Origin: Liquidambar formosana | Lineage: Eukaryota > Streptophyta > Magnoliopsida > Saxifragales > Altingiaceae | Length of the DNA stretch: 64,000 bases | Assembly: GCA_039720395.1 (NCBI GenBank) | Contig: CM077826.1 | Coordinates: forward strand, 30,004,810 to 30,068,809 | Direction of reading: 5' to 3' | Position numbers and translations under genes: made by a program | Part shown: positions 3,889-57,322 of the stretch, in pieces | Numbering within the stretch: position 1 is the first letter of the stretch | How the letters are laid out: each line of letters opens with the position of its first letter | Notes under the pieces: generated by a model | The model's input: only the letters and a program-made list of their open reading frames with translations | What the model was told of the DNA's origin: nothing | The model's database searches: none

Positions 3889-3899
3889 ATCTCCCACTT
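3889..3899 (-). other. Polypurine tract of element C
   Basis: The minus strand reads AAGTGGGAGAT directly before the 3' LTR start TGTTAGGATT. This arrangement is typical of plant Copia elements and primes plus-strand DNA synthesis. Confidence 0.85.
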
Positions 3900-5670: not shown

Positions 5671-8600
5671 TCAATATGTAGCAATTTTAAGGTATATCCT
5701 AGATGGATACATTAGTAAAACTCATCATGGATCAAACCATATCTTAATAGGGTTCAATTTGTTCTCTTAGATTCACCATTGAGCTATGGTATTCTAAGAT
5801 GAGTCTACTATAATTGAATGCATGCTCTACATGACTGTATACATCACAATGTATAGTCAAATTATAAATGTAACTCATTCACTTCAGCAAGTAAAAGATG
5901 GGTTTGGTCATCTCATAACCAAGTCATAATCGTTACATTTAAATGAGAGTGTCTACATCTCTTGTATTCTCGGAATACGTTGCATTCGCTCTAATTAGTC
6001 ATTTAAATTCGGAAATCAAATTTCTAGAATGTCTTAAATGACTTAGTTAAGAAATAAGTTCCCAAAATTAATCTAGCAACTCTTGCTCTATTAAAATTTT
6101 TAAAGGTAACTTATTATCTACTTAACTTTCTGCTTCGATTTAGATTATACTAGAATCCAAAAACCAAGAAGCAAAACTAACCAACAATTTAGTTTAGAGC
6201 ATGAACCAAAACTTCAAAAGTTTGGTTCTTCTAGGAAGACTGATACTTTATCAAGTTCCCTTTACAATACCTTATATTTACTACAAAATAATTATATTTC
6301 TTTGTCTTTGACTTTTCAAGACTTGCTTTCCTCTATGCTTCCATTTTAAATCACATCTAGCTTCTCAAGCTATTCTATGTGATTAATCATTTTTCAAAAG
6401 AATGATTATTAATAAACAACTTTTATTACATCCTAGTCCAGAAGAAGTCCTTTACAAGTACTATACTTTATAGTATTATTTTACTCACAATACAACCTTT
6501 GTATATGATGTAGGACATCAAAGGCACTTGCATTGACTAATTTTTCTTCTGAAGCTCATTAGTCATCAATACTATCATATAGCATGGCAACAAGATGCCA
6601 ATTGCGCATAGTGTCTTTTTCTTCTTAGGATGTTTTATGGAGGGCCTTTAATAAAAGGCCTAATAGCATATAAACAATCTTTTGAAATTGAGAACAATTC
6701 TCAATTTCCTAAGTCAATCAAAGAAATCGGGTTTAGTCAAACTATCAATATCCTATATATTAGGAAATAGGGGTTTTGAGGTGAGTAATTAGGTAATCTA
6801 CATAAACAGAGAATTAGATTTCATTTTTATCCATAATGATTGGGTCTTTAATCATATGGTACCTCCCACTATTTTATCAAATTCCATACACCCTCTAATG
6901 GAATTCGGGAATCTCATTCCTAATGGGGATTGGGGTCCCACTGTGACCTAGAAGCCTCACATGTTAGTTTCTTGACTTCTAACCCACAATAAGAAGACAA
7001 CTCTTTGTCTATTGCTTCATAAGCAAATTCCAATCGTTTTGCCTCTAGGGTACATACTCCTCACATGTTAGTTTCTTGGAATACTTCCCTAGTTAAGTTA
7101 AGCCCATCATTCACACAGGTATGTTTCACCAAATATATACCTCACATGTTAGTTTCTTGGTATATACCAGCTTAGGCACCCCATGATATCTACATATGTG
7201 ATAGTTTCAAGTAATGTCTTTAATATGGGTAGCTCCTACATGTCTGCAGCCAGGTACCCACATTAAGGGACGTTAGATGATCCTATAATGATGGAAGGCA
7301 ATGAAGAATTCATTCCCCAATGACTTCTCCATTTTCAACTTAATATTAAATAAGAGGGGTTTTAAAGGGTCTCATCAAAGTAACATGCATCCTATGTATC
7401 AAAATTTAAACATATAAATTATGCTATTTATAATCATACATCTCATGCTATTATAAATCATACATCGCATGCTATTATATATCAACATATATAAAGTACC
7501 ATATTTTGATATTAGTCCTTAAGTGAATAGGTAACATATACCAAACTATGGTATTGGAGCTAATACAATTATCTCATAAATTAAAGCTCCCACTATGATG
7601 ATTATGGACTTTGAGAGGATTCAATCCAAGCCAATAGATTGAATCCAAGGTCTAAGGTGGGTGTATGTGATCGTAAAATAAACCATTCGTAATATGCATG
7701 CTTTCTTGAAACACTTCTCTAAGCTTTCAAGTCCTTTAATCTGCTCCCTTGGCTTGATGGTCTCCACCATTGGCTTGTTGGGCTCTATCATGCTCCTTTG
7801 GGTCCACCATGCTCCTTAGTGCGCTCTCGATTACATAACATTTACATAATTTAAAGAAAGGGATACATAAGGGGAATGTGGGGTACATAAGAGAATGATA
7901 GAGAGAGAGGGAGAGGGAAGGTGGCATGCAAGCCCCAAATAAATTACATCACCTTAATAAAATTACAACTCTTGTAAATAATAACATCCCATTCATAAGA
8001 CGGCCAATCACAATTGGTTTAAAGGGTATAGTCCATAATCATCATCCAAACACATACATACAATCTCATTGCATAATGTAAAGAAAAACTGTAAGCATTA
8101 AAACATATGGGCATTATGGTAATTCTCTTGAATGATTTACATTAATCTCATTAATGCATCCTAATCTTATTAGGTTTTAACAAAAATATCCAGAATTAAA
8201 TAAAGTCTTAACATTTAGGACATTACAGTTTCAATTAATCAAATTAATTTAAAACATGTAAAGTTTCCTAAAATAACTCTAATGTCCAATATTAGGGTTT
8301 CCTTAATTAAACAAAACAATTTCATTTAATTAAGAATTTCCAGATTTTAATTTAATCCCTAATTGTGTTTTAAACCATTTAAAACATTATAAAATTAATC
8401 AATATTAATTAAATAATTAATATAGGAATTAAATAAAATCATTAAAATGATGAATTAGTGTATTAGGGTTTCCTAAATGCATAACCCTAAACCCTAAATG
8501 CATAACCCTAAACCCTAAATGCAAGCCCTAATCATTAAATGCCTTATGATTGGTCATTTAATGTCCAATCATTAAAACCCTAGGTTCATATGGTATTTAA

Positions 8601-10252
8601 TAAAAGGGATTAGGGTTTAATTAATGCCAAATAGGGTATTAATTACCCTTAATTAATTACACTAATTAGGGTTTCCAAAACCCTAACCCTAGACATCATT
8701 AATGGTATTAATTATGCCCTAACAATCAATAACCATGATTGGTCATTTAATGACCAATCATTAACCCTTAATTAAGGTAATTAATATTCCAATTAGGGTT
8801 TTAATTAATGCCATAATGAAATTAGGGTTTCATCATTAACTCAAAATTAGGGTTTCATCCTTAACTCTATGCAGCCGTCACTACCAGGGGGCTGCCTGAG
8901 CTTGGCTAGGCTGCCATGGCCACCAACGATTGTGGGAGGCCATGGCCAGTCATGGGGGAACATCCTAGGGGTGTGGGACAAGCCTCTGGACACGTGAGAA
9001 GTGGTGGAAGTGGCTGCCATCATCAAGAACAATCAGGGTTTCCAAACCCATTGCTGGAGCCATTGTTGCAGACCTTGAAGGTCACAATAGCTTCTAAATC
9101 CTTATCAATTCGACTCTTCCATTGAAACCAGCTTTTGTATCATGTCCCTACATGAAATACTAAGCTAATAGAAGAGGTTTGGATGATCAAATCATCACCA
9201 ATTGTTCTAAACAATTAAAACAACAGTAGGCTGCCCAGAATTTGACAGCACACTGTCCATGGTCAGAAATTGATTTAAAACCCAGCAAGATGAATGAATT
9301 AGGCTACCAAACGAATTTTCCCAGTATCCTACATGTCTTAGGAAACTAATGCAATTGGTTTCATGCAATTTGGAGTTCCCTAACTCAAGTTCTAATCAAA
9401 ACTCCATTGATGACTTTTCTGCAGAGAAAATCTGCTATGCTGTTCATGAAAAATTTTCAAACTTTTTGAATCTTTTTCCATCAAAACCTTTTTGAAACTT
9501 AAAGAAAATCATATACACATGATATATAATGATCCTACAATGATCTTCCATCATAAATACAGCAGCTTTAATTAGAATTAATTGCAAGAACCTTAGGGTT
9601 CTAAAACCCAGATTCAGCCTCCATGGTGTTCTTCTCCTTCTTCCTTCTGTTCTAGCATCTTAATCCAATTATGATGCATCTAAATGCTTGGGAACCTTTC
9701 CCTACCATGTCTAGAACATAACCCAAGTGGTGGCAACCATTGCCATGCCTTTGATCTCCATCAATAACTCGAAGTTGTGGCTATTGCATCATTCCCGAGC
9801 AAAACTGTCTTTCCAGACAGCCTGTAGTAAAAAATTCATAACTTTCACTACAGAACTCGGATTGACGCACCGTTTGTTGGGTTGGAAAGCTTATTCAAAG
9901 AGCTTTCTAACCATATATGGCTCAAAAATTTTGGAGAAGAACTATGAATTCGGCAGGCAAAACAAGATGACGGTTTTTCATGGCTACCATGAAAACTGTT
10001 CATAACAGTTTTATAAAACCCTAGTTTCCTTATTCTTCTTCTCCAAACTCAAACCCTATGCAACCTATTGCATCCATGGCTACACTTAACCATCAATAAG
10101 AAGAGGAGTAGAAGAGAATTGACCTAGGGTTCCAAACCCTAGGTTCAACCATGGAGGAAAACCAATTATGCAGAAAACTTTTCCAGATTTTTGAATCATT
10201 CAACTACACCATAATTACCAGCCCATATGTATTTTGTATTATGCATAATCAT
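5671..10252 (-). other. Remaining internal region of element C, no recognisable gene
   Basis: This AT-rich sequence lies between decayed pol and the primer site. I find no convincing gag. It contains three near-identical short blocks with CTCACATGTTAGTTTCTTG (near 6957, 7058 and 7141) and telomere-like CCCTAAACCCTAAA motifs at about 8475-8525. It also has a more GC-rich island near 8870-9070, and a 92-codon plus-strand frame at 9727-10005 without a recognisable domain. The last ~1.4 kb would be the element's 5' leader. Confidence 0.6.
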
Positions 10253-10265
10253 GGCTCTGATACCA
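10253..10265 (-). other. Primer binding site of element C, initiator tRNA-Met type
   Basis: The minus strand reads TGGTATCAGAGCC, one base after the LTR end. This is the usual initiator tRNA-Met site of plant Copia elements. It shows that the right-hand LTR is the 5' LTR. Confidence 0.93.
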
Positions 10266-10266
10266 C

Positions 10267-11923
10267 TGTTGGGAATCGAACAAGAGGGAAAAATACAAAG
10301 GCGGAATATAAAAATTTTTCCTACGATTCCCAATCCCATGAATCTAACTATGCATAACACAAAATCAAACCCTAACTACGAAGAGGGTTAGAACACTTAC
10401 AGGATTTTTGTCTTCTCCGTTTTGCTCCAAGCTTCTACTCCGGACAGCGGTGAATGAGCAGCCCAAGTGTGCTGCCTCCAACGGTATCCACACCTAGCTA
10501 GAGCTTCAAGCCTTTTCTTTCTTCTTCCTTGTTGTTGCTAGAGGTGGAGAAGAGAGAGAGAGAGAAGAGAGCCTCCAAAGGGCTGGGCGGCTAGGGTTTA
10601 TTGTGCAAGCCTCTTATGCCATGTCACACATAAGTGTGACTTATATAGGCAGCCCACTAAAGGGGGCTGGCCATGGGGAAGAAACCCTAATAGGGTTATG
10701 TGTAATTACACTTAATTGCACATTAACCCCTATTATTTGTATCAAATACAAATAGGCCTATAAAGAACTATTCTTTATTCACTAAAACCCTTTCTCTCAT
10801 AGACTTTAAAGCCCTTCTTGCATGATCAGTGTGTGACCCATTGGGTTCACATCATTAAGTAGTAGGAATAGCACGAGGTGTGCACAATGGAACTCTTTCC
10901 ATTTAGGGTCTAATTGGAACTCCTTCCAATTTCCTAATCGATTATAACTCACTTATATCAATTAGGGCTTCTACTAACCATGAGTAACACCTAGCATATG
11001 GCTCATGATGTGGTCCTTAATGAGGTGAATAGTCATTTACAAAGAACCCTTCTGTTATAGTTTATAGGTTACAATTGCATCCTTCCTTCAACACAATGTC
11101 TCCAATTGAACTAATAGGACATGGAAGTCTGTCAAGTCCCTAGTTCAATTACTTTATACTCATTCATAGATATCAACTCATTGATGAACTCATGAAACTC
11201 TTTTCATATTCATCCTACCATGGCCATGGATTTAATGAGTTATATTATGAATGCTATATGAGACATTCTCTCTCTTTTCCTGAGAGTGATGGATCCCTTG
11301 TTGATCACTCACATGCCTTCACACACATAGCAGTAGGGCCAATGAACACCTTTGCAGACCCCTGAATAGGATCTGCACTTAGTGTTATCAAACTTCTAAA
11401 GCTACATGCATAAGGCAACTATGGTGTCTCAGGTCTAAGGATTACTTGTACCACTATAACAATGAGAAACTGATTGACAGGCAGGATAAAACTCCATTCA
11501 GTTTATCTCATATCTTTGGTCACATTCAGTGTACCTATTCTCGTAATAGGCACCCACTTGTTGGTTGTAGTGTCTCCACACAAATAGCTTGAGACTAGCT
11601 ATCCTCCTATAGAGTCAACCTAACAAGTGCTAGTCCTATGGTTCATTACTGTCCATCATAGTGAACCTTCAACTAGGAATGCTTAAGGAGTTTAGTACAG
11701 AGATATATCTATAGTCTCAAAATTACAACTCTTTGTAATTCCATATTCTCAACTCTAACTCCATGGACATATTATGTAAATATAAATGATGCATATAAAC
11801 ATAATAGAATAAGCCCTTTTATTAAATCAATAATAAATGTGACATACATAAATGAAATCAAATGATTGTTCCTAATCCCTAAACAATCATCTCCATGATT
11901 GGCTCTAGGGCATAATCCTAACA
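10267..11923 (-). repeat. 5' LTR of Copia-type element C
   Basis: This 1,657-bp LTR matches 2231-3888 with few differences, among them the first bases after GGGAAAAATA, a G/A at the base after GGGTTAGA, and a one-base length change in a T run. It is followed by the target duplication GGGGC. Confidence 0.95.
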
Positions 11924-11928
11924 GGGGC
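11924..11928. repeat. Target site duplication of C, right copy (GGGGC)
   Basis: This is the second copy of the 5-bp duplication. Element A's RT frame resumes here (GATYQRAATTLLHDM in paralog B). Confidence 0.97.
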
Positions 11929-14593
11929 TACTTACCAAAGAGCTGCTACGACCCTATTGCATGATATGATCCATAAAGAAGTAGAGGTGTATGTGGACGA
12001 CATGATTGTCAAATTTGTAGACCGGGAAGGACATTTCGCGGCATTGGAGAAGTTCCTAGAACGGGCAAAGAAGTACAACCTCCGACTGAATCCTCAGAAG
12101 TGTGCCTTCGGAGTCACCGCAGGGAAGCTGTTGGGTTTCATGATCACTCAGAGGGGAATTGAAGTTGATCCAGGGAAGATAAAAGCTATCACGGAGATGG
12201 AGACACCAAGAACAGAAAAGCAGATCCGGGGTTTTCTGGGGAGAGTTCAATACATAAGCCGTTTTATCGCCAATCTGACCATGGTATGCGAGCCAATTTT
12301 CAAGCTACTTAAAAAGGGCGTTTCCAAGGAATGGAATGAGGATTGTCAAGAAGCCTTTGAGACCATTAAAAGGTATCTGAGTAACCCCCCAATCTTGGTT
12401 CCCCCGCGGCAAGGTGAACCATTACTGTTATACTTAACGGTTACTGAAACCGCGACGGGAGCTATGTTAGCTCAATACCTTGAAGGGTCGAAAAAGGAAA
12501 ATGCCATCTACTACTTGAGCAAGAAAATGACAGATTATGAAGTGAAGTACAATACGCTAGAAAAGGCTTGCGTAGCATTGGTATGGGCTACCCAGAAACT
12601 CCGTCATTACATGATGTCTTTCGAAGTCCTGTTGATAAGTCGATTGGATCCTTTGAAGTATTTGCTAGAAAAAACAGTCCTATCATATAGGACCGCTCGT
12701 TGGTCGCTTCTTCTCAATGAATTCGACATAAAGTACCTGGCGCAGAAGTCCGTTAAAGGAAGTGTCATTGCAGACCATTTGGCAAGCTGCCCTGTGTCGT
12801 CATCAACCCAATTCAATGATGAGTTCCCCGACGAAGATATCCTAGAAATCAAGAAGAAGGTTTGGAAAGTCTACTTCGACGGAGCTGCAAACAGAAGAGG
12901 TTATGGCATAGGAGTGCTACTAGTCTCGCCCGAGGAAGCCTTCACGCCTTTAGCAGTTAAATTGGGGTTCGAAGCCACCAACAACATAGCAGAGTATGAG
13001 GCCTGCATCCTAGCATTGGAAGCTGCGTTAGAGTTGGGGATAAAAGAACTAGAGGTGTTCGGAGATTCAACATTGATCATCTGTCAGATAAAAGGGGAGT
13101 GGAAGACTCACGATGAGAAGCTGTTGCCCTATCATGCCTATTTGGAAGCACTGACCAAAGAGTTCACGGAGATCGAGTTCAATTACTTGTCGAGAAACAA
13201 GAATCAGTTCGCTGATGCCTTAGCAACTCTAGCTTCAATGGTGGAGATACCAGAAGGAGGAAGCGTGAAACCGCTCGTGATCGAATGCAGAGAGAAACCT
13301 GTTTATTGCTGTTCCATTCGAGAAGGGGAGGTAACAGATAGCCACCCTTGGTTTTATGACATAAGAAGGCTCATCGAGGAAAGGGAATATCCAGAGGAAG
13401 CATCTCGCATGGATAGGCGAACACTGAGAAGATTGGCAAGCCATTATGTGGTATGCGGAGGAAAATTGTATCGGAGGTCTTACGACGGAATCCACTTGCT
13501 GTGTGTCACGGAGGAAGAAGCCAGGAAACTCATCGAAGAAATCCATGAAGGAGTGGGGGCTCCGCATATGAATGGATACATGATGGCTAAGAAGATCATG
13601 AGACTAGGGTATTACTGGTCTACAATGGAAAGGGATTGCTATACCCACGTCAAGAAGTGCCATAAGTGTCAACTCTTCGCCAACGGACAACACTTGCCCT
13701 CCATGCCCTTAACAAGCATGTCAACTCCGTGGCCGTTTGCAGTATGGGGAATAGATATCATCGGACAGATTAAGCCGAAGGCATCCAATGGTCATAAATA
13801 CATTTTGGTAGCCATCGATTACTTTACCAAGTGGGTGGAAGCAACTTCCTTCAAAGTTTTGAATGCTAAAAAGGTGGCGCAGTTCATACAGCTCAACATT
13901 ATCTACCGATATGGGGTACCGCATGAGGTTATTTCAGATAACGGTCAGCATTTCCAGAAGGAGACCAAAGAACTCTTGCAGAAGTACAAGATCGTTCATC
14001 ACTTGTCATCCCCGTATCGTCCACAAACAAACGGCGCAGTGGAAGCCGCCAACAAAAACATCAAGAAGATATTACAGAAAACGGCTGACACGTACACTGA
14101 TTGGCATGAGAAACTACCATTGGCATTATGGGGGTACAGAACATCAGTCAGATCGTCAATAGGGGCTACGCTGTATGCGCTAGTGTATGGGATGGAGGCT
14201 GTTCTGCCAGTGGAATTGGAAGTTCCTTCGTTAAGGGTTGCAGTGGAAAGTCAGCTAGCAGAGGTGGATTGGATCAAAAGTCGTTATGATGAGTTGGCAT
14301 TACTAGATGAAAGGCGATTGAGGGCTTTCTACCATGTGCAAGGGTACCAGAGAAGAGTCGCAAGGGCGTTCAACAAACATGTCAAAGACAGAGGCTTAAA
14401 GAAAGGGGATTTAGTGTTGAAAGAGATCCGAGCTCCAATTTTGGATCCACGAGGAAAGTTCAAACCAAGTTGGGGTGGACCATACGTCATCAAGGAGATA
14501 TTGCCAACAGGGGCTGTTCGACTTATGGATTTGGATGGGATCGAGTTCGCTCGTCCTACTAATTTGGATCAATTAAAGAAGTATTATGTATGA
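11929..14593 (+). CDS. Element A pol, RT C-terminus to integrase, open frame after C
   Basis: An open frame of 878 codons from the first ATG at 11957; residue numbers count from it. The RT catalytic box YVDD is at 12-15. The RT-linked RNase H follows, with a LSKKMTDYEVKYNTLEKAC block. A second, archaeal-type RNase H has all four acids: D308 (YFDGAANRRG), E346, D370 and D420. Integrase has a His/Cys zinc region ending in CHKC, then D600 (WGIDIIG), D661 (SDNGQHF) and E696, spaced D-60-D-34-E as in D,D(35)E enzymes. There is no chromodomain at the end. The domains look intact, but the RT N-terminus is cut off by element C and by a frameshift, so the polyprotein cannot be produced from this copy. 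Confidence 0.93.
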
Positions 14594-14945: not shown

Positions 14946-16244
14946 TTAAGTCCTCTTGAGTTTCTTCAGAGTCATTTTGTTTGTCTTTTGTCTCTCTCTA
15001 TCAAGTCTTCTTTTCTTTCGCAAGTTATGGTCGTGGGATGCCTCCACTGCTTCAAGAATGTCTTCTCTGCAAAGTCCAAGTCTTGTGTCCTTGATAAGGT
15101 CATAAATTCTTTCTCAGCGAGAGGCTTCTCTTTCGCCCAAGTCATCCTTCAACCAGTGCTTGTATTCTCTACTCATCTCGAAAGGCCCTTCAGTGTTGGC
15201 AATCCGAGTCAATTTCAGGTCTGTAGGCCAGTGAGTCCTCGCCCACTTGATTATGGTAGGACCGACAGGTTCCACAAAGCAACAAGGTCCTGTTAAGGAC
15301 GGTATGGTTTGCATGGTGCCCATCTGGCGAAGAATTCTCGAAGCCCAATAGAAGGAAGTCGACCTCAGTCCTATGAGTTTGACAAAAGCACACCCCGAGG
15401 TTCGAAAAAGTACCTGCTCTTTACACCCCCATGTAAAGACGTACCATTTGATGTTCCGCCATGACAGCGTGTGGAAATAACCCAACCAATCTCTTAAAGA
15501 GAACGGCCCAGGGAGTTCAACTCGGCGCAGACAGAAGTGCTGGGGCTTGTATGGATTGATAGTGGTGGGAGATAGAAAATTCAAGCGCTCGAGCAGCCAC
15601 ATTTGTAGTAAAAAGGGGCTACCTTCTAAAAGCGCTTTGGGGTTGCCATGAACCTTATCTAAACCATTCAAGGTTTCAGCTAATACCAAGGGAATGATGT
15701 TATGGCGCTTGAGAAGAGGGGCAACCAACTCACATATTTGAACAGGGGCTTGAAGAGTATCGGTGGAGATGAGAAAGCGACTGATTAAACAGAAAGCAAG
15801 TGCACGCTGAATTTGAGGGGTAAAAGTCAGAATACCTTCGCTATCATGAGCCAAGAATGAGGTTGCTAACTTCATTAAGTCCACCACATGGTCCTTGACA
15901 AAGGTCGTTGTGTCCCTTTGAGGAATGCCAAGAAAATCCGAGAAGGAAGCAAGGTAATCCGAGCGAGGTGTAGGAAGAATGAATGGCCCTGCGGGCGAAA
16001 CTCCAAATAAAGCACAGAATTCCTCCATGGTTGGGCATAATTCTTCATAATTAAATCGAAAGACATGGATTTGAGGATCCCAGAAGTATGTAGCAGCAGT
16101 GAGAAGGGTCGTCTCGAGCTTCATGTGCCTTATGGAGAGCAATGGTTCCAAGCCGAAGCGCTTAAACTCAATTTTGTCTTTGGCAGGCATGACTGCCAAA
16201 AACCCTCTTAAGAACCCATCCAAGGCTTCCATAATTATTGTCAA
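14946..16244 (-). pseudogene. Antisense extra gene 1: DUF7745/PMD-like protein, one premature stop
   Basis: This gene is antisense to pol. A 376-codon frame opens at ATG 16244 and meets TGA at 15114-15116. Reading on in the same frame gives 55 more codons to TAA at 14946-14948, with a basic tail (LRKKRRLDRER, LKKLKRT) that resembles a nuclear signal. Copy B keeps the same tail (24686-24774), which supports the extended frame. The body has blocks typical of plant DUF7745/mobile-domain proteins carried by retroelements: YFWDPQIHVFRF, ELCPTMEEFCALFG, ALAFCLISRFLI and LLQMWLLERL. Function is unknown. Extra genes downstream of pol, sometimes antisense, are known in Tat elements. A TATA-like box (16281-16287) and a foldback (16375-16454) lie just upstream. 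The domain name is from recall, not from a search. Confidence 0.8.
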
Positions 16245-16280: not shown

Positions 16281-16287
16281 TTTTATA
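16281..16287 (-). promoter_or_regulatory. TATA-like box before antisense gene 1
   Basis: The minus strand reads CCCTATAAAAACAC, 37 bp before ATG 16244. That implies a very short leader if transcription starts 30 bp downstream. Confidence 0.45.
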
Positions 16288-16374
16288 GGGAAAGGGTCAC
16301 AAATTCGAGTCCTAAAGGGAGTAGAACCGTCAAAATCGCAAAATTCCTGAAAAATCGCGAAAAAGAGCGTCGAC

Positions 16375-16732: not shown

Positions 16733-19398
16733 TCAGCGATTCCCAGAGCTTCTTTTGCGGCTCGGCCCAGTTCCATCACGACCCCCACGAGGTGCTTTAG
16801 GAGGGCGCATTGCTGGTGGTGGCTGCATATACAAAATCCATTGCAAAGAAGTCAAGTATGAGAATAAAGTTGGTTGAAAACCACAAATAGGAACCTTAAA
16901 ATGGGTTGAACACTTACCATGACATCCAAACGAGCTTCCGCCATGGATTTGGCTAGGCTCATCCTCACAAGGTCACGCCTCAAGCCCTCACTAAGGTCGA
17001 TGAACTCTTGGGCATACGCCGCAGGCACCTAGGATAATCAATAAGGGTAAAATTGAAGGTAATGTTCAAAGAAAGAAAGAAATACCCATAAAGAGAACTC
17101 ACCTGTTCTCGATTTGGGTCGATCCTGGGGGACTCATCAAATGCAGGATGAGTGATGGCGGTCTTGACAAAGTCTGACCCACTGCACAAATCAATGAACC
17201 AATTCGGCTGAGGCAAGGGTAGTGACCTATCCCCCTCCATCTCATCTTCCTCAGAGCCAGGAACCACTCCTGAGCCCACTGTCCAGCTATGCCCTCGTGC
17301 TCGTCGACCCTGCAAGTGTTCGCCTATTAAATAGAGTCTCTATAAAAAAGAAAAGGCTAGGAGAATGTTAAAGACTTACCCCCTGAGGAGGGAGGCCTGT
17401 CACCCTAGGCCTCATCAGATATTGGAGACAGAAAGTGTCATATGCAATGTCAGGAGAAGTGAACTCCTCCGCATCCCAGCCTCTCAAGGCATCCCACAAC
17501 TCCTCCCCCTCCATTAAGTTAGCATGCCTCATGTTAAGTGGTGGAGGCATTGGAGCCATGGCGGCATTCACATCACCCATGACTTGGCGTAAGACACGCT
17601 CCCCTAGGTACCAGTACCTACCCACGGGGCCTTCCAAGAGCACCCTCTTGCCCGTTAGCATCAAGCTAGGAATGCATCGCTTGGGTAGCATTGGTACCCA
17701 TATCTTCCATGGATTCCATTCAATCTGTCCAAAAATCCAAAATGAGAAATTGGGGAGTAAAAAGAAAAAGAAAAGAATGGGGAAAGAATTTCACCATATC
17801 AGCAGTGAGGCTTGCTAGGTGAGCTCTAGCAAAGGCGTAATCATGACGATTCGCCGCTTGGATGGACACATAACTAGGAGAGTAATTCTTGAGGGTAGGC
17901 CATTCAATGGTTTCCTCAGCAAGGGATGGGCGACATAGGTTGAGGTACTCATAGCACCAAACCTGTCAAAAGTTGAGAAAAGAGTCAAAAAGAAAAGATA
18001 ATATAAGAAAAAAATAAAAAGGAATGAAAGGGAAGTAGCATTACCTCCCAAACAAAGGGCATCCCGCTAAAGTCCTTAGTCACACCACGTGACATGTCAC
18101 ACATGGTGCGATACATGGTGGCTAGAGCAGCCCCTCCCCAGTTGAACTTCCTGATCTTGTCAACATCCTCCATGCTTGCAAGAAGACCCAAAGGGGCTAG
18201 GTCGCCCGTCCCAGCAAAGAATGTGCATGAGATCATGTACAGAAGGAATGCCCTTGTAATGCAATCGGGGCTTGCACCCTCGCTCTCCCTTTGCTTAGCA
18301 AACTTGTTGAAAAGCCAAGTGCGTCGCACTGCTTTCTTGATTACCTCGATTTCCATCCCAAGGTAAGCTAGGAGATAATCTTCATCCGTGTGAGCCTCCT
18401 CATAGAACTCCAAGCTTTTGCCTTTAATGCTTAAGCCCGTGATCATAGTGAAGTCCTTGGGGGTTAATGTCATCTCCCCGAAGCTAAAATGGAATGTATT
18501 GGTGGTGTCCCACCATAGCTCAGACAAGGCTAGCAAAGCTTGCCTATCACATTGGTCATTCCATAGAGAATCTAGGAATGGGCCAAAACCGGCCTTTTCG
18601 ATATAGCCTTTGGTGATGGGTTGGAAGTTTTCCATGTTCCGCCACCATTCAATGAGTCCTTTGACAGAGGACCGAGTGCGCATGTCCTGAAAGTTGGGCT
18701 ATAGCCATTGAAAATACCTTGAGAGTTAGTTGAGAGAACATGGAAATGATATGCTTACACTAGCAATTGGTTTCAAATTGTTTTCTAAAAGATGTCAAAA
18801 GTTTGTTTTTATTCATGAAATGAATTGCTAATGGATGTTTATGAGTTTACTTGTTCATGTGCCTTAATTTGGCAAGGATTGAACACTTTTTTATCACTTG
18901 GGCATTTTATCGAACACTTGGTGGGTGACACCTCCCAAGCCTTGAAACAAAAGAATTTTGTATGGTCAATCCTTGCTAAATCATAGCATATTACTTACTT
19001 GAGGGTTTACTTGTTGATATACATTGATTTGGTAAAGATTAAACATCTTTATTTCACTTGGGAATTTTATCGAACACTTGGCGGGTGCCATTTTTCAAGC
19101 TTTCAAATGAAAAGTATTTGTGTGTTCAATCCTTGCCAAATCAAGGGATATCACTCAACAACCCAAGGGGTATTCAAAAGAAGTAGAAGGGAATGCAATT
19201 TCATCGAAAGAATCGAAAGATTCAAAAGAAAAGTGTTAAGTTGGGTAAACTTACTTCTTGTTGGGAATGGATGAATGAGAGATGCTTGTCGGGTTCAAGC
19301 AACACCCTAGCTTGTGGAGCATCATAGAGTGGTGCCTTGTATGTGCTTTTGACCCCATAGAATGGATACTTGGTGCTTGAGTCCTTGCTTGATGACAT
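16733..19398 (-). CDS. Antisense extra gene 2: spliced plant mobile domain (PMD) protein
   Basis: I read seven exons on the minus strand: 19398-19255, 18686-18045, 17962-17795, 17724-17380, 17309-17103, 17028-16918 and 16822-16733 (TGA at 16733-16735). All six introns are GT-AG and phase 0; they are 568, 82, 70, 70, 74 and 95 bp. The joined frame is 568 codons without a stop. Exon 2 holds the PMD signature: FGEMTLTPKDFTMITGL, FAGTGDLAPLGLLAS and FNWGGAALATMYRTM. The end is rich in Pro, Arg and Gly (PPKAPRGGRDGTGPSRKR). PMD proteins occur in transposable elements and as domesticated silencing factors (the MAIL1/MAIN family). Here the gene lies inside Tat element A, antisense to pol, between antisense gene 1 and the repeat arrays. 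The start ATG was chosen because it opens a frame that joins exon 2 in phase at a consensus donor (GAA|GTAAGT). Splicing itself is inferred. Confidence 0.85.
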
Positions 19399-20029: not shown

Positions 20030-20530
20030 TGATATCATATCATGTGATAAGGATAATTTCACATGAAATGACTTGCTAATTGTGTGATAAAGATAACTTC
20101 ACATGAAATGATGATTCATAAGCTATGCTAGTTAGGAAGTAACTTGCTATCTTTGTGGAGAGGGCATGAAATGCACTTTGTTTTTCAATCAATTGACTTT
20201 CAAAATCAATGTTGTATCATGTGATAAAGATAATTTCACATGAAATGACATGAAATAAGCTTGATTAACTCTCAATTCAATGTCATTTCATGTGTTAAAG
20301 ATAATTTCACATGAAATGATAAGTAATGAACTTGATTTTGAGTTGAATGACTCTCAATACATTATCATTTCATGTGATAAAGACAATTTCACATGAAATG
20401 CAATTGATTTGGAGTTGAATGACTCCCAGTACATTGTCATTCCATGTGATAAGGATAGTTTCACATAAAATGATAAGAAATGAGCTTGATTTTGAATCAA
20501 TTGACTTGCAATTGGGTCTCATATCATGTG
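20030..20530. repeat. Array of short dyads CATTTCATGTGA...TCACATGAAATG
   Basis: At least six imperfect copies (near 20037, 20087, 20216, 20283, 20363 and 20437) of a hairpin unit. The arms CATTTCATGTG and CACATGAAATG surround a spacer of about 14 bp (ATAAAGATAATTT). The copies are 50-80 bp apart and mixed with ATTGACTYTCAA-type spacers. The array lies upstream of the PMD gene and before the 3' LTR. Confidence 0.75.
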
Positions 20531-21010
20531 ATAAACACAATTTCCCATGAAATGACGATCCATGAGTTATGCAATAACTCCCCGTCTTTGTTACTTCCAC
20601 AGAAAGTGGCACAATTTCCCATGAAATGACGATCCATGAGTTATGCAATAACTCCCCGTCTTTGTTACTTCCATAGAAAATGGCACAATTTCACATAAAA
20701 TGACGATCCATGAGTTATGCAATAACTCCCCGTCTTTGTTACTTCCACAGAAAGTGGCACAATTTCACATAAAATGACGATCCATGAGTTATGCAATAAC
20801 TCCCCGTCTTTGTTACTTCCACAGAAAGTGGCACAATTTCACATGAAATGACGATTCATGAGTTATGAAACAACTCCCTATCTTTGTTACTTCCACAGAA
20901 AGTGGCATGAAATCACAATTTCACATGAAATGATGATTCAGGAGTTATGAAATAAATCCATATCTTTGTTGTTTCCACTGAAAGTGGCATGAAATCATAA
21001 TTTGATGAGT
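20520..21010. repeat. 74-bp minisatellite
   Basis: CCGTCTTTGTTACTTCCA recurs at 20582, 20656, 20730 and 20804, exactly 74 bp apart. Diverged copies follow near 20878 and 20956. Each unit contains one ACAATTTCMCATRAAATGACG half-dyad and CATGAGTTATGCAATAACTC. It grew out of the dyad array to its left. Confidence 0.88.
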
Positions 21011-21229
21011 CATGAGTTATGAAATAACTCACCACATTTGTTATCCCCAGTGAGACTGGCATGAAATGCCCTTGGTTTTGAATTGATGGACATTCAATTC
21101 ACCAATAATTCACATGAAATGATGATTTATGAGTTATGAAATAACTCGTTTTGAGAATTACCAATGAAATTGGTAGGATACCTTGTGATGTACTAGTGCA
21201 ACTAGTTTTGCATCATGAGAAGACCATGT

Positions 21230-21622: not shown

Positions 21623-21660
21623 TGTTCTTTGATCATTGGCTCGCAAGTGAAACTTGTTCA

Positions 21661-21675: not shown

Positions 21676-22381
21676 TGTCACACCCCATTTTTGTCACCTT
21701 AGCTAGGACATATCATTTCATGTAGGATTTTGAGTCCTTTTTGAGTCTAGTCTTTTGCATTGAGTTTCTATAGCGTTGAATATCATGTGTATGAATTTTG
21801 AAGTGATTTGGAGTTCATTTCGATAGTCAATAAGAACTTTTGCGACTTTAAGGGCATAATCGTCTTTTAAGTCGTATATTTTCCATTTGACTTTGGAATG
21901 AATCCCGAGTCATCCCATGAGTTCATATGGTTACATAGAGTCCATATATAGGTTCAATTTCATGAATTAATGGTTTAAGATCAATTCGGCTCGTAATGGT
22001 TCGGGTTGGCTAAAAGACCCTTTCTTGGTTTGCTCAAATTGACTCATAAGACCCAACCAATTCTCTCTCATTTAACTTCAATTGGGCTTTATTTATGTCC
22101 TAAATATGTTTAGAAAGATCGATTTTCGATTGGGAAAGCATTCGGTTTGACCTCGTGTACAAACCCAGCTTAGCGACGGTGAGGCACCATGGTTAACCAC
22201 CTTTTTAAAACCCAACCATGCACCCATGGTTGAGGATTTTTGTCCCAAAATACTTAAAAATGTGTTCCCCTTCGAAACACGGTCGTTTTGGCTTTTATTT
22301 CGTCAAAATCGGACTTAATTTGAGCATTTTAGAACTTCTACAGCGAGTAGGAGTCAGAACCGGAGTGAAACAAGGAAAGCC

Positions 22382-22461
22382 CTCGGGTAACCGTCCGGGG
22401 CTGGACGGTCAGCCGTCCAAGCCCAGACGGCTAACCGTCCGGGGCTAGTTGGTCACCCGAG
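22382..22461. promoter_or_regulatory. Foldback motif in the LTR of A
   Basis: CTCGGGTAACCGTCC ... GGTCACCCGAG with nested GGACGG/CCGTCC arms, about 190 bp before the TATA box. Confidence 0.85.
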
Positions 22462-22648
22462 AGAGTCCGTCCTCAACTCAAATTCTGACTCTTCTCTCCC
22501 TCTTTTGACGGTTTCCTCCGCCAAAACAACTTGTCTGAGCTTAGGAGTGTGTAGGTTTGAGTTGTTTGAGCACCAAGAGAGTCTCTAATAGCCCTAGGAT
22601 CATTATTTAATGAATTAATCCTAGCCATTGGTTTAGGGGGTCAGTTCT

Positions 22649-22659
22649 CTATATAAAGG
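22649..22659 (+). promoter_or_regulatory. LTR promoter TATA box of A
   Basis: CTATATAAAGG fits a plant TATA box. The equivalents are CCTTTATATAG in B's LTR (34733-34744, minus) and TTATATAAAG in 57428-58693. Confidence 0.75.
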
Positions 22660-24685
22660 ACATGATATTCAGCACATAGGGGGAGGTTAATTGCACTTTA
22701 CACTTAGAAAGAGAGGGAGCTACGAGTTTGGAGAGCTAGAAGGACTTCAAGAGGAGGCTCTTCAACCCCAAGCAAGCAAGGAAACAAGAGGATTGAAGAC
22801 AAGGAAGAGTCTACAAGAGGTAAGCATGTCTCTTTAATGCTGAACATAAATTTCCTGCTTCTCCTTCTTCTCTTTCTTCTTCTTCTTTTAAGATAGCTAT
22901 GGTGCATGAGATTGTTCTTCTTATGGATGGAATTCAATGTTTATGTGATGTTATATGAATGATTTTAGGATATATTATGGCTTTATATGCTTGATAATCC
23001 ATGGTTTACTAAGGATTTGATAGCCTTCTTCGCTCTATCTTCTTAAATCATGCATAGTTCACATGTTTAGGTTGCTGTGATTATTATCATGAATTGATGC
23101 TCCTGTTAGTTAGTATATGTGATATGAATGATATTCATGATAATTTGAGCATGTCTTAGAGTTATTTCATAGGTCTTAATGCATAGTTGTGAGATTAGGG
23201 TTTCGATAACCCTGAAATCGCACAAGTTTCATACAGCATGCTTAGCTTAGCTTTTTGAGTTGTTGCTCATCATAGTCATTCTATATATGCTGCATATAGT
23301 TGAATCATGCTAGGTTTGCATTCATATAGTATATTTTATAGGGTTTTTGGAGACATTATCCTTTTCTAAGGATAATTATCCTTTTCATTGAGTGAGGTTT
23401 GCATGAGAGTCTTCTATGATGTGTTTAAGCATGAAATCTTTTCTGTTGTGTTCTAGGGTATATATTTTACGTAGGATATGCTGATTGCACCTCCCCATAA
23501 CGACTTTCTTACGTGAAATTATCTTAGGATAGTTTCGCTTAAGAAAGCTCGCCGTAGGAAGGTCTATTTTCATATTTTACATGAAATATCATCTTTTTGG
23601 TTAGAATATGCTTTGTTATCATGTTTATTGATATTATTGGAGTCTCTTATGCTTGTTAGTGTGTCTTTGGTAGGTTTTTATGCATGTTAGTCGAGTCATT
23701 GCATGTAGGATTGAGTTAGAGTCCCTAGTTATTCATTATTCTTGTTGTTTGCATGATTAATGGATGATTTTAGGCCTTGTCAAGGTTCTGTCCAGATTTG
23801 CATATTGCTTTCTTTGCATGATTTTGTGCACTTGTAAGGGTGCAAACAGGTACAATGCTTGTCCTATTGCAAATAGGGCTGCTATGGTCTGAAATGGCTA
23901 ATGATTGGAGCTTGTGCGCTCAGGTAAGTAGGGTTTGAAGGTGCCCCAATTCACCTTTCTTTTTCTATCTTTTCTCTTCTCCCTCCTAGGGTTACTTCTT
24001 AATACAAGCTTATGGTAATTATCAAAGGTTTCCTTCAATAATAAATTCTGGTTTTTATCAAAGTTTTTCTCTTGTGGAAGTTTTCAGTTTTAGATTTAAT
24101 CAATACATTTTCAAATAAAGAAACCTAGGGTTTTTACCATAGGTTTGTATTAGGTTGTAACCCTATTCTTTTCGAACTACGTGGACTTTGATCCATGTAT
24201 TTCGCTGCATGGTACGTAGGCGCTCTTCGTGAGGCTCAAGTCCGTTCTAGGATCCAAGTATCCTAGGCTTTTCTTTTCTTTTCTTTTTTTTCTGTTTTGT
24301 TTTATTTGAGTAATTGTGCATGAGATGATTGGATGAAATATATGATATGCATGCTGCCTTGTGATGATATATGATGATAGTTGAGTGGAAAAGATCTTAA
24401 GTTAGCCCAATTAAATTAAGAGACCAACTCGGGCGATGTGGGTGCCTATGGGCTTTTGCCCAGAACCTTCCCACGTCGTAACTTAGCCCCCGGATCCAAT
24501 TTTCTGGTTTCAAAGACTTTGCTTTTCCTTTAATGGAGTCATGTGGTTTTGAAAATAAAACATTTTTGTGGTTTTCCTCTTTTCCCTAAAAAATGAGGTG
24601 GCAACTCCCTTTTTGTTTGTTGTCTTTAAACCCCTTATATTTTTGCCAAACCCTTGTGGGCTCCGCGCTTTTTCGTGGGTTCACA

Positions 24686-24774
24686 ACGACCATGACTTGC
24701 GAAAGAAAAGAAGACTTGATAGAGAAAGACAGAAGACAAACAAAATAACTCTGAAGAAACTCAAGAGGACTTAA
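24686..24774 (+). pseudogene. Tail of antisense gene 1 in element B
   Basis: The last 29 codons of B's copy of the antisense gene (LRKKRRLDRERQK ... LKKLKRT, then TAA). The rest was separated by the insertion of A and would lie left of the window. Confidence 0.75.
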
Positions 24775-25086
24775 AGACTCAAGGAATAGAATATCTATGG
24801 CATGTCGATAGTTCTTTTACTTAACACCAATAAATTGTTATGTCAAACAATTAGTTTTAAATGAATTGCCAATAATAATCTACTTTTGAGATTTTTTTGT
24901 GATTGCGCTGTTTGGACCGCACCCAATGTAACTTTATGGGCTGCCTACATATCCCTGTTTTCTTTTTTTTTCTTTTTCTTTTTTTTTTTTTTTTTTTTTT
25001 TCTCTTTTTGGGGAATCAGGTCCTCGTAGTTCAAATGCCTTAACTTTTGCCTAGGCCGCCTTTACAGGTTTTTAACCTAGCAGGCC
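24775..25086 (-). other. Element B 3' untranslated region
   Basis: Homologous to 14594-14945. The purine tract shows as poly-T at about 24960-25010 on the plus strand. No gene on the minus strand. Confidence 0.75.
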
Positions 25087-28000
25087 TTATACATAATACT
25101 TCTTTAATTGATCCAAATTGGTGCGACGAGCGAACTCGATCCCATCCAAATCCATAAGTCGAACAGCCCCTGCTGGCAATATCTCCTTGATGACGTACGG
25201 TCCACCCCAACTTGGTTTGAACTTTCCTCGTGGGTCGAAAATTGGAGCTCGGATCTCTTTCAATACTAAATCCCCTTTCTTCAAGCCTCTGTTTTTGACA
25301 TGTTTGTTGAACGCCTTTGCGACTCTTCTCTGGTACCCTTGCACATGGTAGAGAGCCCTCAATTGCCTTTCATCTAGCAATGCGAACTCATCATAACGAC
25401 TTTTGATCCAGTCCACCTCTGCTAGCTGACTTTCCACTGCAACCCTTAACGAAGGAACTTCCAATTCCACTGGCAGAACAGCCTCCATCCCATACACTAG
25501 CGCATACGGCGTAGCCCCTGTTGACGATCTGACTGACGTTCTGTACCCCCATAATGCCAATGGTAGTTTCTCATGCCAATCAGTGTACGTGTCAGCCGTT
25601 TTCTGTAATATCTTCTTGATGTTCTTGTTGGCGGCTTCCACTGTGCCGTTTGTCTGCGGGCGATACGGGGACGACAAGTGGTGAACGATCTTGTACTTCT
25701 GCAAAAGTTCTTTGGTCTCCTTCTGGAAATGCTGACCGTTATCTGAAATGACCTCATGTGGTACCCCATATCGGTAGATAATGTTGAGCTGTATGAACTG
25801 CGCCACCTTTTTAGCATTCAAAACTTTGAAGGAAGCTGCTTCCACCCACTTGGTAAAGTAATTGATGGCTACCAAAATGTATTCATGACCATTGGATGCC
25901 TTCGGCTTAATTTGTCCGATGATATCTATTCCCCATACTGCAAACGGCCACGGAGTTGACATGCTTGTTAAGGGCATGGAGGGCAAGTGTTGTCCGTTGG
26001 CGAAGAGTTGACACTTATGGCACTTCTTGACGTGGGCATAGCAATCCCTTTCCATTGTAGACCAGTAATACCCTAGTCTCATGATCTTCTTAGCCAACAT
26101 GTATCCATTCATATGTGGAGCTCCCACTCCTTCATGGATTTCTTCGATGAGTTTTCTGGCTTCTTCTTCCGTGACACACAGCAAGTGGATTCCGTCATAA
26201 GACCTCCGATACAATTTTCCTCCGCATACCACATAATGGCTTGCCAATCTTCTCAGTGTTCGCCTATCCACGCGAGATGCTTCCTCTGGATATTCTCTTT
26301 CTTCGATAAGCCTTCTTATGTCATAAAAACAAGGGTGGTTATCTGTTACCTCCCCTTCTCGAACGGAACAGCAATAAACATGTATCTCTCTGCATTCGAT
26401 CACGAGCGGTTTCACGCTTCCTCCTTCTGGTATTTCCACCATTGACGCTAGAGTTGCTAAGGCATCAGCGAACTGATTCTTGTTTCTCGACAAGTAATTG
26501 AACTCGATCTCCGCGAACTCTTTGGTCAGTGCTTCCAAATAGGCATGATAGGGCAACAGCTTCTCATCGCGAGTTTTTCACTCCCCTTTTATCTGACAGA
26601 TTATCAATGCTGAATCGCCGAACACTTCTAGTTCTTTTATCCCCAATTCTAATGCAGCTTCCAATGCTAGGATGCAGGCCTCATACTCCGCTATGTTGTT
26701 GGTGGCTTCGAACCCCAATTTGACTGCTAAAGGTGTGAAGGCTTCCTCGGGCGAGACTAGTAGCACTCCTATGCCATAACCTCTTCTGTTTGCAGCTCCG
26801 TTGAAGTAGACTTTCCAAACCCTCTTCTTGATTTCCAGGATATCTTCGTCGGGGAACTCGTCATTGAATTGGGTTGATGATGACACAGGACAAGTTGCCA
26901 AATGGTCTGCAATGACACTTCCTTTAATAGACTTCTGCGCCTGGTACTTTATGTTGAACTCATTGAGGAGAAGCGACCAACGAGCGGTCCTGTATGATAG
27001 GACTGGTTTTTCTGGCAAATACTTCAAAGGATCCAATCGACTTATCAACAGGACTTCGAAAGATATCATGTAATGACGGAGTTTCTGGGTAGCCCATACC
27101 AATGCTACGCAAGCCTTTTCTAGCGCATTGTACTTTACTTCATAATCTGTCATTTTCTTGCTCAAGTAGTAGATGGCATTTTCCTTTTTCGACCCTTCAA
27201 GGTATTGAGCTAACATGGTTCCCGTCGCGGTCTCAGTAACCGTTAAATATAACAGTAATGGTTCACCTTGCCGCGGGGAACCAGATTGGGGGGTTACTCA
27301 GATACCTTTTAATGGTCTCAAAGGCTTCTTGACAATCCTCATTCCATTCCTTGGAAACGCCCTTCTTAAGTAGCTTGAAAATTGGCTCGCATACCATGGT
27401 CAGATTGGCGATAAAACGACTTATGTATTGAACTCTCCCCAGAAAACCCCGGATCTGCTTTTCCGTTCTTGGTGGCTCCATCTCCGAGATAGCTTTTATC
27501 TTCCCTGGATCAACTTCAATTCCCCTCTGAGTGATCATGAAACCCAACAGCTTCCCTGCGGTGACTCCGAAGGCGCACTTCTGAGGATTCAGTCGGAGGT
27601 TGTACTTCTTTGCCCGTTCTAGGAATTTCTCTAATGCCGCGAAATGTCCTTCCCGGTCTACAGATTTGACTATCATGTCATCCACATACACCTCTACTTC
27701 TTTATGGATCATATCATGCAATAGGGTCGTAGCAGCTCTTTGGTAAGTAGCCCCAGCATTTCTCAAGCCAAAAGGCATTACCTTGTAGCAATACGTGCCC
27801 CACTGCGTGATAAAAGCTGTCTTTTCCATGTCTCGAGGCGCCATCTTTATCTGGTTGTAACCGGAGAACCCATCCATGAAGGAGAGAAGAGCATGGCTTG
27901 CTGTACTGTCCACCAATACATTGATATGTGGTAGAGGGAAATCGTCCTTCGGGCTCACGGCATTAAGGTCGCGGAAGTCAACACACATTCGCACTTTCCC

Positions 28001-28486
28001 ATCTTTTTTAGGCACAGGCACTATGTTAGACAGCCACTCAGGGTACTCCACAACTTGGAGAAACCCGGCATCTAATTGTTTAGTTACCTCTTCTTTTACT
28101 TTCAAAGCCCATTCTGGTTTTAATCTTCTTAATTTTTGCTTTATAGGCTTTTTAGTGGGATTAATGGGGATGTAATGTTGCACTATATCTGGATCAATAC
28201 CAGGCATATCCTCATAAGACCATGCGAAGGCCTCTACATTGGCTTTTAGAAGTATTATCAATTTTTCTTTTTCAGCAGGTGAGAGAGTTATCCCAATTTT
28301 AATTATCCTTGGCAATTCATCTGTTCCTAGATTGATTGATTCCAATTCATCCATGTTAGGTTCGGTAACGCCCCTTTTCCTTTGCTCGACGAGCTCCGGG
28401 GGGACGTCATTCCTAGGATCTATATCCATGCCATAGATATCCATAGAAGAGAGAAAGGAAACACTGCAAATAATGAAAAGAAACAC
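25087..28486 (-). pseudogene. Element B pol: RT, RNase H, aRNase H and integrase with lesions
   Basis: Homologous to A's pol and complete in domain order. The RT segment (28486-27263, 407 codons) has YVDD and no frameshift. Two single-base deletions near 27270-27290 then change the frame. The RNase H pair follows (27216-26578). In the archaeal-type RNase H the first catalytic aspartate is asparagine (YFNGAANRRG; codon at 26800-26802). A TGA at 26578-26580 replaces the tryptophan codon of A (KGEW). From there to 25087 the frame is open and holds the zinc region (CHKC), WGIDIIG, SDNGQHF and the E of PQTNGTVEAANKN, so integrase looks intact. B therefore cannot make a functional polyprotein. Confidence 0.93.
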
Positions 28487-28629
28487 ACTTTATTGACTGA
28501 ACTAACAAAACAAAACAAAGAAAAGAAAACACATGTGCCACAACTAGGGAACGACTCCTAACTCCACAAGGTGGGCTAGGCGGACACACTTTTATTTGAA
28601 AGGAAAGCTAAGACAAGCTACTAAGGAAC
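28464..28629 (-). other. Protease-RT linker of element B, intron candidate
   Basis: Counterpart of 1351-1515, with the same pyrimidine-rich TTTGCAG end on the minus strand. Confidence 0.45.
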
Positions 28630-31600: not shown

Positions 31601-32028
31601 GACCTGCGGATTCCCTTCAGAGTTCGTTCTAAGGCCTCGACCTTGTTTGCCAGGACGGTTGAGCTCTCCCTTGATGTGGCTTTGGTTTCCCCTTCCTTGG
31701 TCTTGGGTAGTTCTCCCCCTTCTCCTAATGGTTCCTCAGCGGATTCAGACTCATTGGATCCTTGATTGTTATCAGTGGCACGGGCCCTAGATTCAGGTTC
31801 AGAGTTCTTTTGTTGAAGGTCTTGAGCTAACTTGAGTGCGGTCTCGGATACCTGGGTAGTGTGATTAAGCTTTTCCATGATAGCTTTCAAAGCGGCCTCA
31901 AGGTTGAAACCCCGGTTGCTAGTTCTTTCCTCAGCCATATCCGACTCAGTGACGGAATCAGCACTGACTAGGCGCCCTTGTTGATTGCGGATCCAAGCCA
32001 GCACGTCTCTCCCTCTAACATAGGGCAA
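28630..32028 (-). pseudogene. Element B gag-protease, two premature stops
   Basis: Starts with MPYVRGRDVLAWIRNQQGR at 32028. It has a retrotransposon gag core (residues ~150-330, with FHESLASSALKWF and FNALV-like FKALVGAST), then a degenerate zinc knuckle CKFHQAKGHLTNRC. A second knuckle-like CLYHQAPGHDTEDC follows the first stop. Protease follows with DNGSALNVCPLRTA. Two stops break the frame: TAA at 30475-30477, and TAG at 29893-29895 where A has a glutamine codon. The end (LPDSSL) matches A. Gag assembles the particle and protease would process the polyprotein; neither complete protein can be made here. Confidence 0.9.
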
Positions 32029-32687
32029 ACACTCAATTTTTCAGCCTAAGGGTTCATCCTAAGCTTCCATAATTATCTCAAAATCTTTACAACGTACACC
32101 CTTAATTAGTTCTCTTAACCAATTACCCTTGCGGGGGTCATGGGGAAGGGTACGTATTAAGGATGTAGGATGTAAAGTTTCCTTTAATTACCCACTCAAT
32201 CAACAAAGCATGGCAACACATCACAAACACGGCAGCATATCATCACAACAATGTATGTGCATATAGGTGATCCAACGGTGTCCTAGAAGGCCCATTACAT
32301 GCAATTCTTTCTTTTAAGAGGGTAGGCTAGGGTCTTCAACTTTGCTTGTACCAATCTTTATACCTAACCACATGTGACATCAGGAATGTCGCGTGGTTCC
32401 AGCAGTACGTGATTGATCCATTTGATATACCCAAGGGCAAGCCCAAGGGTACTTGCCAAGAGAGGTTTGATAGCTTCGCCCAACACATGGAATCAGGAAA
32501 ACCAAGGTCGAACTAGGCTATCAGTTGGCAAGGATACATCGAGGGACAATCGAGTGATCATGCAACAGTAGCACACACAATGCAATAAATGAAAGCACAC
32601 AATCAAGCGGATGCAATATGATTGATTTTAATTAATAATAAGAAATTAATTTAGCCCAATCAAATTAAATGAGTCTAGCCCTCGACA
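32029..32687 (-). other. Element B 5' leader
   Basis: Non-coding sequence between primer site and gag start. I see no gene in it. Confidence 0.6.
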
Positions 32688-32705
32688 TCCCCAGCGGAGT
32701 CGCCA
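32688..32705 (-). other. Primer binding site of element B
   Basis: The minus strand reads TGGCGACTCCGCTGGGGA, three bases after the LTR end. Similar sites in Tat/Ogre elements are assigned to tRNA-Arg; that assignment is from recall. Confidence 0.75.
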
Positions 32706-32708
32706 AAC

Positions 32709-57319: not shown

Positions 57320-57322
57320 ATA

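Follow-up and report, generated by a model that had tools for sequence, protein, structure and literature searches.

The 64,000-nucleotide stretch of the Liquidambar formosana genome analyzed here (GenBank assembly GCA_039720395.1, contig CM077826.1; hereinafter the window, whose coordinate c corresponds to C7:30004809+c of the 718 Mb genome) contains a Ty3/gypsy long terminal repeat (LTR) retrotransposon, element A, which carries on its antisense strand, between pol and the 3′ LTR, a plant mobile domain (PMD) gene with six introns that we call PMD7. Comparison of the copies of this gene across the genome showed that its spliced frame was under purifying selection while the retrotransposon family transposed and that single copies then decay. 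The explanation that we favor, and hold as a whole with considerable confidence, is that an Ogre/Tat-type family has PMD7 as a true accessory gene with a selected spliced frame, and that the gene moved as DNA and would be spliced from an antisense transcript to yield a protein acting in trans. This points to antisense placement as a way for a retroelement to carry a gene with several introns.

PMD7 comprises seven exons on the minus strand (19398-16733), which six GT-AG introns, all of phase 0, join into 568 codons plus a stop. The exons, each of a length divisible by 3, are exon 1 (19255..19398, 144 nt, with the ATG at 19398), exon 2 (18045..18686, 642 nt, the N-terminal part of the PMD), exon 3 (17795..17962, 168 nt), exon 4 (17380..17724, 345 nt, the C-terminal part of the PMD), exon 5 (17103..17309, 207 nt), exon 6 (16918..17028, 111 nt), and exon 7 (16733..16822, 90 nt including the stop, a basic C-terminal tail). 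Between them lie intron 1 (18687..19254, 568 nt, GTAAGT...TTTCAG, with an internal duplication 18845-18995/19005-19155), intron 2 (17963..18044, 82 nt), intron 3 (17725..17794, 70 nt; 69-73 nt in the copies), intron 4 (17310..17379, 70 nt), intron 5 (17029..17102, 74 nt), and intron 6 (16823..16917, 95 nt); the T content is 0.40-0.57 in introns 2-6, 0.32 in intron 1, and 0.24 in the coding sequence. As the preliminary description of this DNA had proposed, we compared the joined protein with Pfam and recovered PMD (PF10536, E=3.5e-37, residues 95-365, 128.8 bits at a gathering cut-off of 34.9). The nearest proteins are two L. formosana gene models, P0001 and P0002 (70% and 57% identity locally, 91% and 59% over multiply aligned positions); judged by protein alignment only, P0002 is joined like PMD7 at introns 3, 4, and 5, and P0001, which is without exon 1 and much of exon 2, at introns 2 and 6. 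Intron 3 is stop-free in the frame continuing from exon 3 and measures 69 nt in many copies, such that its retention adds 23 residues, and P0001 appears from the protein alignment to be annotated with it retained; length changes of this intron common to several copies argue for its normal removal.

Intron conservation and coding constraint among the copies

A search of the genome at the DNA level gave 2783 first-look candidates, and 40 places among them were scored; we retrieved 30 of the 40, one of which is the window itself (L012). With element B, a second copy of the family in which A is nested, this gave 31 copies (A, B, and L013-L041); since B is absent from the 40 scored places, copy numbers are lower bounds. 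All six introns are present in each of the 31 copies; had a spliced antisense mRNA served as template, copies free of introns might be expected, and there are none among the 31. All 12 splice dinucleotides are kept in 28 of the 31, the three losses each being private to one copy, and the GT and AG of intron 1 persist in every copy; PMD7 is open with all splice sites in 8/31, one of these eight having an in-frame 18-base deletion. The gene has the same position and orientation in A and B. Coordinates show the same for two more loci that, besides the window, figure in both the PMD7 and the pol lists: pol and PMD7 are about 2 kb apart there, the spacing also found in the window. Of the 40 places scored for pol, we further read six that the PMD7 list does not contain, at the stretch expected to hold exon 2; in five of them it is present, oriented as expected and with 92-97% protein identity.

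For the analysis of selection, variants were binned by the number of copies carrying them and polarised by the commoner base; we read old variants as dating from the active period of the family and private ones as mostly later than insertion. As the copies share history, the P values are guides. Synonymous, nonsynonymous, and stop variants (S/N/stop) in PMD7 number 131/203/17 in the one-copy class, 63/74/8 in two to three copies, and 83/20/0 in at least four copies, the neutral N/S expectation from the non-coding spectrum being 2.37. Variants in at least four copies fall on codon positions 1, 2, and 3 in the numbers 19/5/79. Introns read as codons (leaving out the 6 bases next to each donor and the 10 next to each acceptor) gave 14/30/2 in this class, the two remaining frames giving 17/27/3 and 11/32/4; by Fisher's test, the PMD7 class differs from introns with P=6e-9 and from single-copy variants with P=1e-13. 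The omega-like ratio falls with rising copy class from 0.65 (one copy) through 0.51, 0.46, 0.14, and 0.11 to 0.07 (10-16 copies). Four of the five alternative exon frames have no synonymous excess (S 21, 4, 18, and 10 in at least four copies), and indels common to several copies number 0 in exons and 6 in introns (introns 3, 4, and 6), all of frame-shifting lengths.

These counts also bear on two alternatives. One is that the exon-intron structure was read by chance into degenerate sequence, a view to which the weak donor GTGAAA of intron 3 and an alternative acceptor for intron 1 at 18698 (giving 572 aa instead) would lend themselves; as exons 2-6 each show a synonymous excess in the oldest class across the 31 copies (S43 N9, S6 N0, S11 N1, S11 N2, and S7 N0 for variants in at least four copies) and the introns show none, we give it practically no weight. 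Thus, the seven exons, phase-0 GT-AG introns, and stop-free 568 codons of the preliminary description are confirmed by both the gene model and the variant pattern. The other is that the antisense transcript acts as RNA (double-stranded RNA or element silencing) with the protein incidental, as the available text of a 2020 review proposes for plant retrotransposon antisense ORFs (open reading frames; PMC7264820). With selection tracking codon positions, stop variants missing from the class of at least four copies, and no exon indel in common, such a role on its own is contradicted and very unlikely; an RNA role additional to the protein is possible.

For comparison with other genes of the element, we measured the ratio of nonsynonymous to synonymous substitution rates (dN/dS) between A and B. 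By NG86, it is 0.184 for PMD7, 0.183 for the pol piece 11924-14593, and 0.379 for PMD1, a single-exon antisense gene adjoining PMD7 (15114..16232, minus strand; its stop-to-stop ORF was used); the YN00 values are 0.261, 0.337, and 0.723, respectively. By NG86, and for this single pair, PMD7 is therefore constrained about as strongly as the 3′ portion of pol. PMD1 is also constrained, less tightly than PMD7 (S50 N25 stop1 for variants in at least four of 29 copies, L025 and L041 being excluded since homology is lost inside PMD1), and is open in 11/29 copies. The preliminary description had tied the gene's standing to splice-site conservation and to a dN/dS removed from 1 across copies; the 28 copies with intact dinucleotides, the A/B value for PMD7, and the composition of the class of at least four copies all went in the gene's favor, and its contention that antisense introns survive reverse transcription of the sense RNA is consistent with their presence in every copy.

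Several observations weigh against our reading of PMD7 as a selected, spliced gene. No constraint is visible in the oldest class for exon 1 (S3/N5) or exon 7 (S2/N3), and the class of two to three copies stands at S1 N7 for exon 6; the opposite-strand frame with coinciding third positions reaches S64 N36, to which the true frame is clearly superior. The exons also carry nine indels, each private to one copy and eight shifting the frame, and the omega-like ratio of single-copy variants is 0.65, not 1, either because some of these predate insertion or because the neutral yardstick is rough. The parity of PMD7 with pol depends on the method (NG86 versus YN00) in the single A/B pair. L051, one of the six pol-chosen loci, has no PMD7 at the expected stretch, and P0001 (by protein alignment only) keeps intron 3 and is without exon 5. 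A TATA-like site 5′ of PMD7 is kept in only 17/30 copies, and a TATA candidate of PMD1 (CTATAAAA, 16281..16288, minus strand), found in 27/29 copies, is no better conserved than its surroundings, 24% of spacer 8-mers being kept equally well; neither was used as evidence. Finally, the predicted splicing of PMD7 is deduced from conservation.

The host elements and their surroundings

Element A lies on the plus strand, with its 5′ LTR at -5738 to -2730 (C7:29999071-30002079, within the 30 kb left of the window that were also examined) and its 3′ LTR at 21676..24685, followed by the target-site duplication (TSD) ACGAC at 24686-24690. It is nested in element B, on the minus strand, having inserted just past B's pol: the gag-pol side of B occupies 24686..32708 and its 5′ LTR 32709..35671 (TSD GGGTT), its 3′ LTR begins at -15492, and its PMD genes lie left of the window. 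Both are complete LTR retrotransposons by their two LTRs and TSD, each about 20.7 kb once inserts are removed; B has PMD7 and PMD1 at positions matching those in A, and the primer binding site reads TGGCGACTCCGCTGGGG in both. The gag-pol of A (46..2230 within the window, plus strand) resumes at 11924..14593 (plus strand) with the end of the reverse transcriptase (RT), RNase H (residues 142-272 of this piece, with the RT_RNaseH match at 170-272), an additional RNase H (RVT_3, 323-441), and integrase (core 609-705). The presence of RVT_3 besides the native RNase H places the element in the Tat lineage, and its location between RNase H and integrase is, in the consulted portion of PMC6317226, the mark of Ogre and Retand. 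TRP28 (PF04195) had no match at E 0.01 in PMD7, PMD1, or the seven other ORFs of at least 80 aa from pol to the 3′ LTR, five short ORFs within the PMD genes not having been scanned apart; these seven ORFs matched no Pfam family. By the pol domain order and with TRP28 not found, the family is Tat and, within Tat, probably Ogre. Pfam, the pol domains, and the LTRs with their TSDs thus bear out the earlier claim of a PMD gene antisense within a Tat-type Ty3/gypsy element.

The same description had gag-pol broken by stops and by an insertion. The insertion holds: a younger 9.7 kb LTR element (2231..11923; LTRs 2231-3888 and 10267-11923; TSD GGGGC) sits in the RT of A, and its near-identical LTRs (Kimura two-parameter distance, K2P, 0.0024) make this break very recent. 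Of the stops, we found a single in-frame one, between ORFs of 701 and 370 aa; a further break, within the ~540 bases that follow, may reflect either decay or a spacer of Ogre type (the inter-ORF gaps are ~540 bases in A and ~140 in B, and both copies are decayed). The insert has no ORF of at least 150 codons, which makes it a probable non-autonomous element; copies related to it are found at the window's right end (55512-64000).

A clean gene in a dead element had been thought to need a special use or selection of this copy, an idea that the data do not sustain. The openness of PMD7 here while its element is broken would fit a domesticated copy kept intact by host use. Against this stand the LTR divergence of A, 1.3% (K2P 0.0128; 0.0178 for B), from which little decay is expected, the eight open copies among 31, the recency of the pol insertion, and a constraint that acts on family-wide variants and weakens toward private ones; we consider domestication highly improbable, and a promotion of PMD7 to host gene was rejected on the last of these grounds. 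With a young element and open copies elsewhere the puzzle dissolves, the short time since insertion making an open 1.7 kb frame unremarkable.

PMD1, the second antisense gene, which the preliminary description leaves out, encodes 372 aa from its ATG (431 aa stop-to-stop, 16409-15114) and matches PMD (E=2.9e-14, 53.4 bits, cut-off 34.9) and DUF7745 (E=8.8e-11). A PDB sequence search with it returned no match, and an AlphaFold2 model from nine sequences had a mean pLDDT (predicted local distance difference test) of 46.6. A relative at 47% identity, P0047, is filed under the bacterium Modestobacter lapidis; this record is most likely plant contamination. Between PMD7 and the 3′ LTR lies a tandem array with a 74-base unit (20165..21067), which with a 197-base duplication forms a region (20165-21626) resembling descriptions of Retand and is a possible site of the antisense promoter. 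Elsewhere in the window, 36500-48000 holds older, diverged copies with LTRs of the A/B type (~68-78% identity) and pol fragments at 41740-44843, and 49907-50770 (plus strand) encodes a Plant_tran/DDE transposase (E=4.7e-84), which we take to be a Harbinger-type remnant.

Relatives of PMD7 and shared intron positions

At 27-32% identity, more remote proteins from Rhododendron, Camellia, and Fagus align over junction 1, as the joined protein does with P0003, P0005, P0007, and P0011. P0023 (from a 1.4 kb contig) carries an insertion of 26 residues exactly at junction 2, and its similarity is lost at junction 3, the pattern expected of retained introns; P0032 (2.1 kb contig) runs uninterrupted through junctions 2 and 3, may represent either a transcript or a gene lacking introns, and was left out of the evidence. 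Within the genome, both sides of intron 3 coincide in position with L044 and with L045, which adjoins the transposase ORF of a Mutator-like element (MULE); in L043 the acceptor side coincides. The donor position of intron 2 is matched in L043 and L007, and neither L044 nor L045 has this intron. Around L043 and L044, no match to the A/B gag-pol pieces was seen in 9.9 kb, with some of their ORFs scanned against Pfam, such that "outside this element" is the full extent of the claim. An intron 3 position, and on the donor side an intron 2 position, in common with PMD families outside the element imply that the gene passed into or out of the retrotransposon as DNA and not as processed cDNA.

The other PMD genes of the genome, one adjoining a MULE ORF, and the intron 3 position in common with them raise the alternative that a single subfamily acquired PMD7 recently from a PMD gene of the host or of a MULE. 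Yet PMD7 has ~23-41% identity to these families, and in a tree of 41 of 62 rows (short-overlap rows were dropped, including PMD1, L042, L001, L002, L006, P0001, and P0002) it groups with 32 database proteins (33 rows, support 100/99), apart from the other families of the genome, on a long, flagged branch; P0023, moreover, is interrupted at junction 2. We regard a recent capture as improbable. The highest-scoring PMD loci, L001-L004 of the C15 cluster, have uninterrupted PMD frames, and their "MAIN-like" label denotes score only.

At another locus, L042 (C1:4442700-4452600), a gag ORF of 890 aa is adjoined by uninterrupted antisense ORFs of 725 aa (PMD) and 403 aa. Of 138 PMD matches in the genome, 32 span profile positions 1-295 as L042 does, and 28 of these are stop-free; L042, the one locus examined, looks like a second antisense PMD retroelement family. 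The preliminary description had explained the orientation of PMD7 by its introns. The part that stands is that introns need the antisense strand; the converse, a rule that antisense placement needs introns, was rejected, since the PMD ORF of L042 is uninterrupted, as are PMD1 and the antisense genes of Retand, reported as uninterrupted ORFs in the available text of PMC11963269.

Proposed function and comparison with known systems

Under the favored explanation, a promoter on the antisense strand would give rise to a PMD7 pre-mRNA, which the host spliceosome would process, and the sense genomic RNA, unspliceable at these sites, would carry the introns along through reverse transcription. The protein would act in trans to raise the success of the element, and each new copy, released from selection, would decay. 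In the host, the PMD proteins MAIN and MAIL1 act in the silencing of transposons, and it has been speculated that MULEs use the PMDs they captured to counter silencing (PMC5418596, in the sections available); extending this to PMD7, its product would most likely interfere with MAIN/MAIL1 (PMD-protein) silencing or regulate the element's own transcription. A broader possibility, which we put forward tentatively and think rather doubtful, is that the lineage carried a multi-intron, cellular-type antisense gene across plant families, with introns predating the split of retrotransposon, MULE, and genic PMDs, and a protein serving as a trans counter-measure to MAIN/MAIL1 silencing. If true, antisense placement would be a general route by which retroelements keep spliceosomal introns. 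Ikeda et al. call it "fully open" whether PMD silencing proteins came from Gypsy elements or the reverse (PMC5418596); the shared intron position bears on this question by showing that what was transferred was DNA, its introns in place. The 2020 review noted above urges a search for antisense and spliced transcripts (PMC7264820). For one antisense gene, the result of the copy-frequency test is clear: selection acted on the spliced protein, and one pairwise measure makes it as strict as that on pol. Intron-bearing antisense genes of this kind can escape surveys that go by ORF length.

PMD genes were reportedly described from Ogre/Tat elements by Steinbauerova in 2011. In the literature as available to us, PMD is found in 57% of Ogre elements. 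PMD7 resembles the PMD genes of Ogre/Tat elements (Neumann 2019, PMC6317226; the PMD-A clades of Ikeda 2017, PMC5418596) in being a PF10536 extra gene of a Ty3/gypsy element, and element A shares with Ogre and Retand the additional RNase H; unlike PMD7 with its six introns, those genes are reported as extra ORFs, with introns or selection on a spliced frame unmentioned in the portions consulted, and element A differs further in having two distinct PMD genes side by side. The antisense ORFs of Retand-type elements match PMD7 in position, orientation, and the tandem repeats of the region; they are, however, reported as ORFs, many with TRP28, whereas PMD7 bears introns and lacks a TRP28 match. 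The word "intron" occurs 0 times in PMC11963269 and PMC7264820, and the antisense gene of Grande was shown to have its own promoter, as cited in the latter. HBZ of HTLV-1 (human T-cell leukemia virus type 1) is likewise an antisense accessory gene of a retroelement with a spliced transcript (PMC3185765, in part); its major spliced form begins in the 3′ LTR, whereas PMD7 is wholly internal with six introns, and no homology is claimed. The genome's other PMD families (the C15 cluster, L045, L044, L043, and L007) share with PMD7 the domain and, in L044 and L045, the intron 3 position, and differ in their low identity, their other tree branches, the missing intron 2 of L044 and L045, and the uninterrupted frames of L001-L004. 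Our literature search, with most subscription journals outside its coverage, found no report of an intron-bearing antisense PMD gene. Within that coverage, PMD in Gypsy elements and antisense ORFs in Retand-type elements are known, and what is new is a multi-intron antisense PMD gene.

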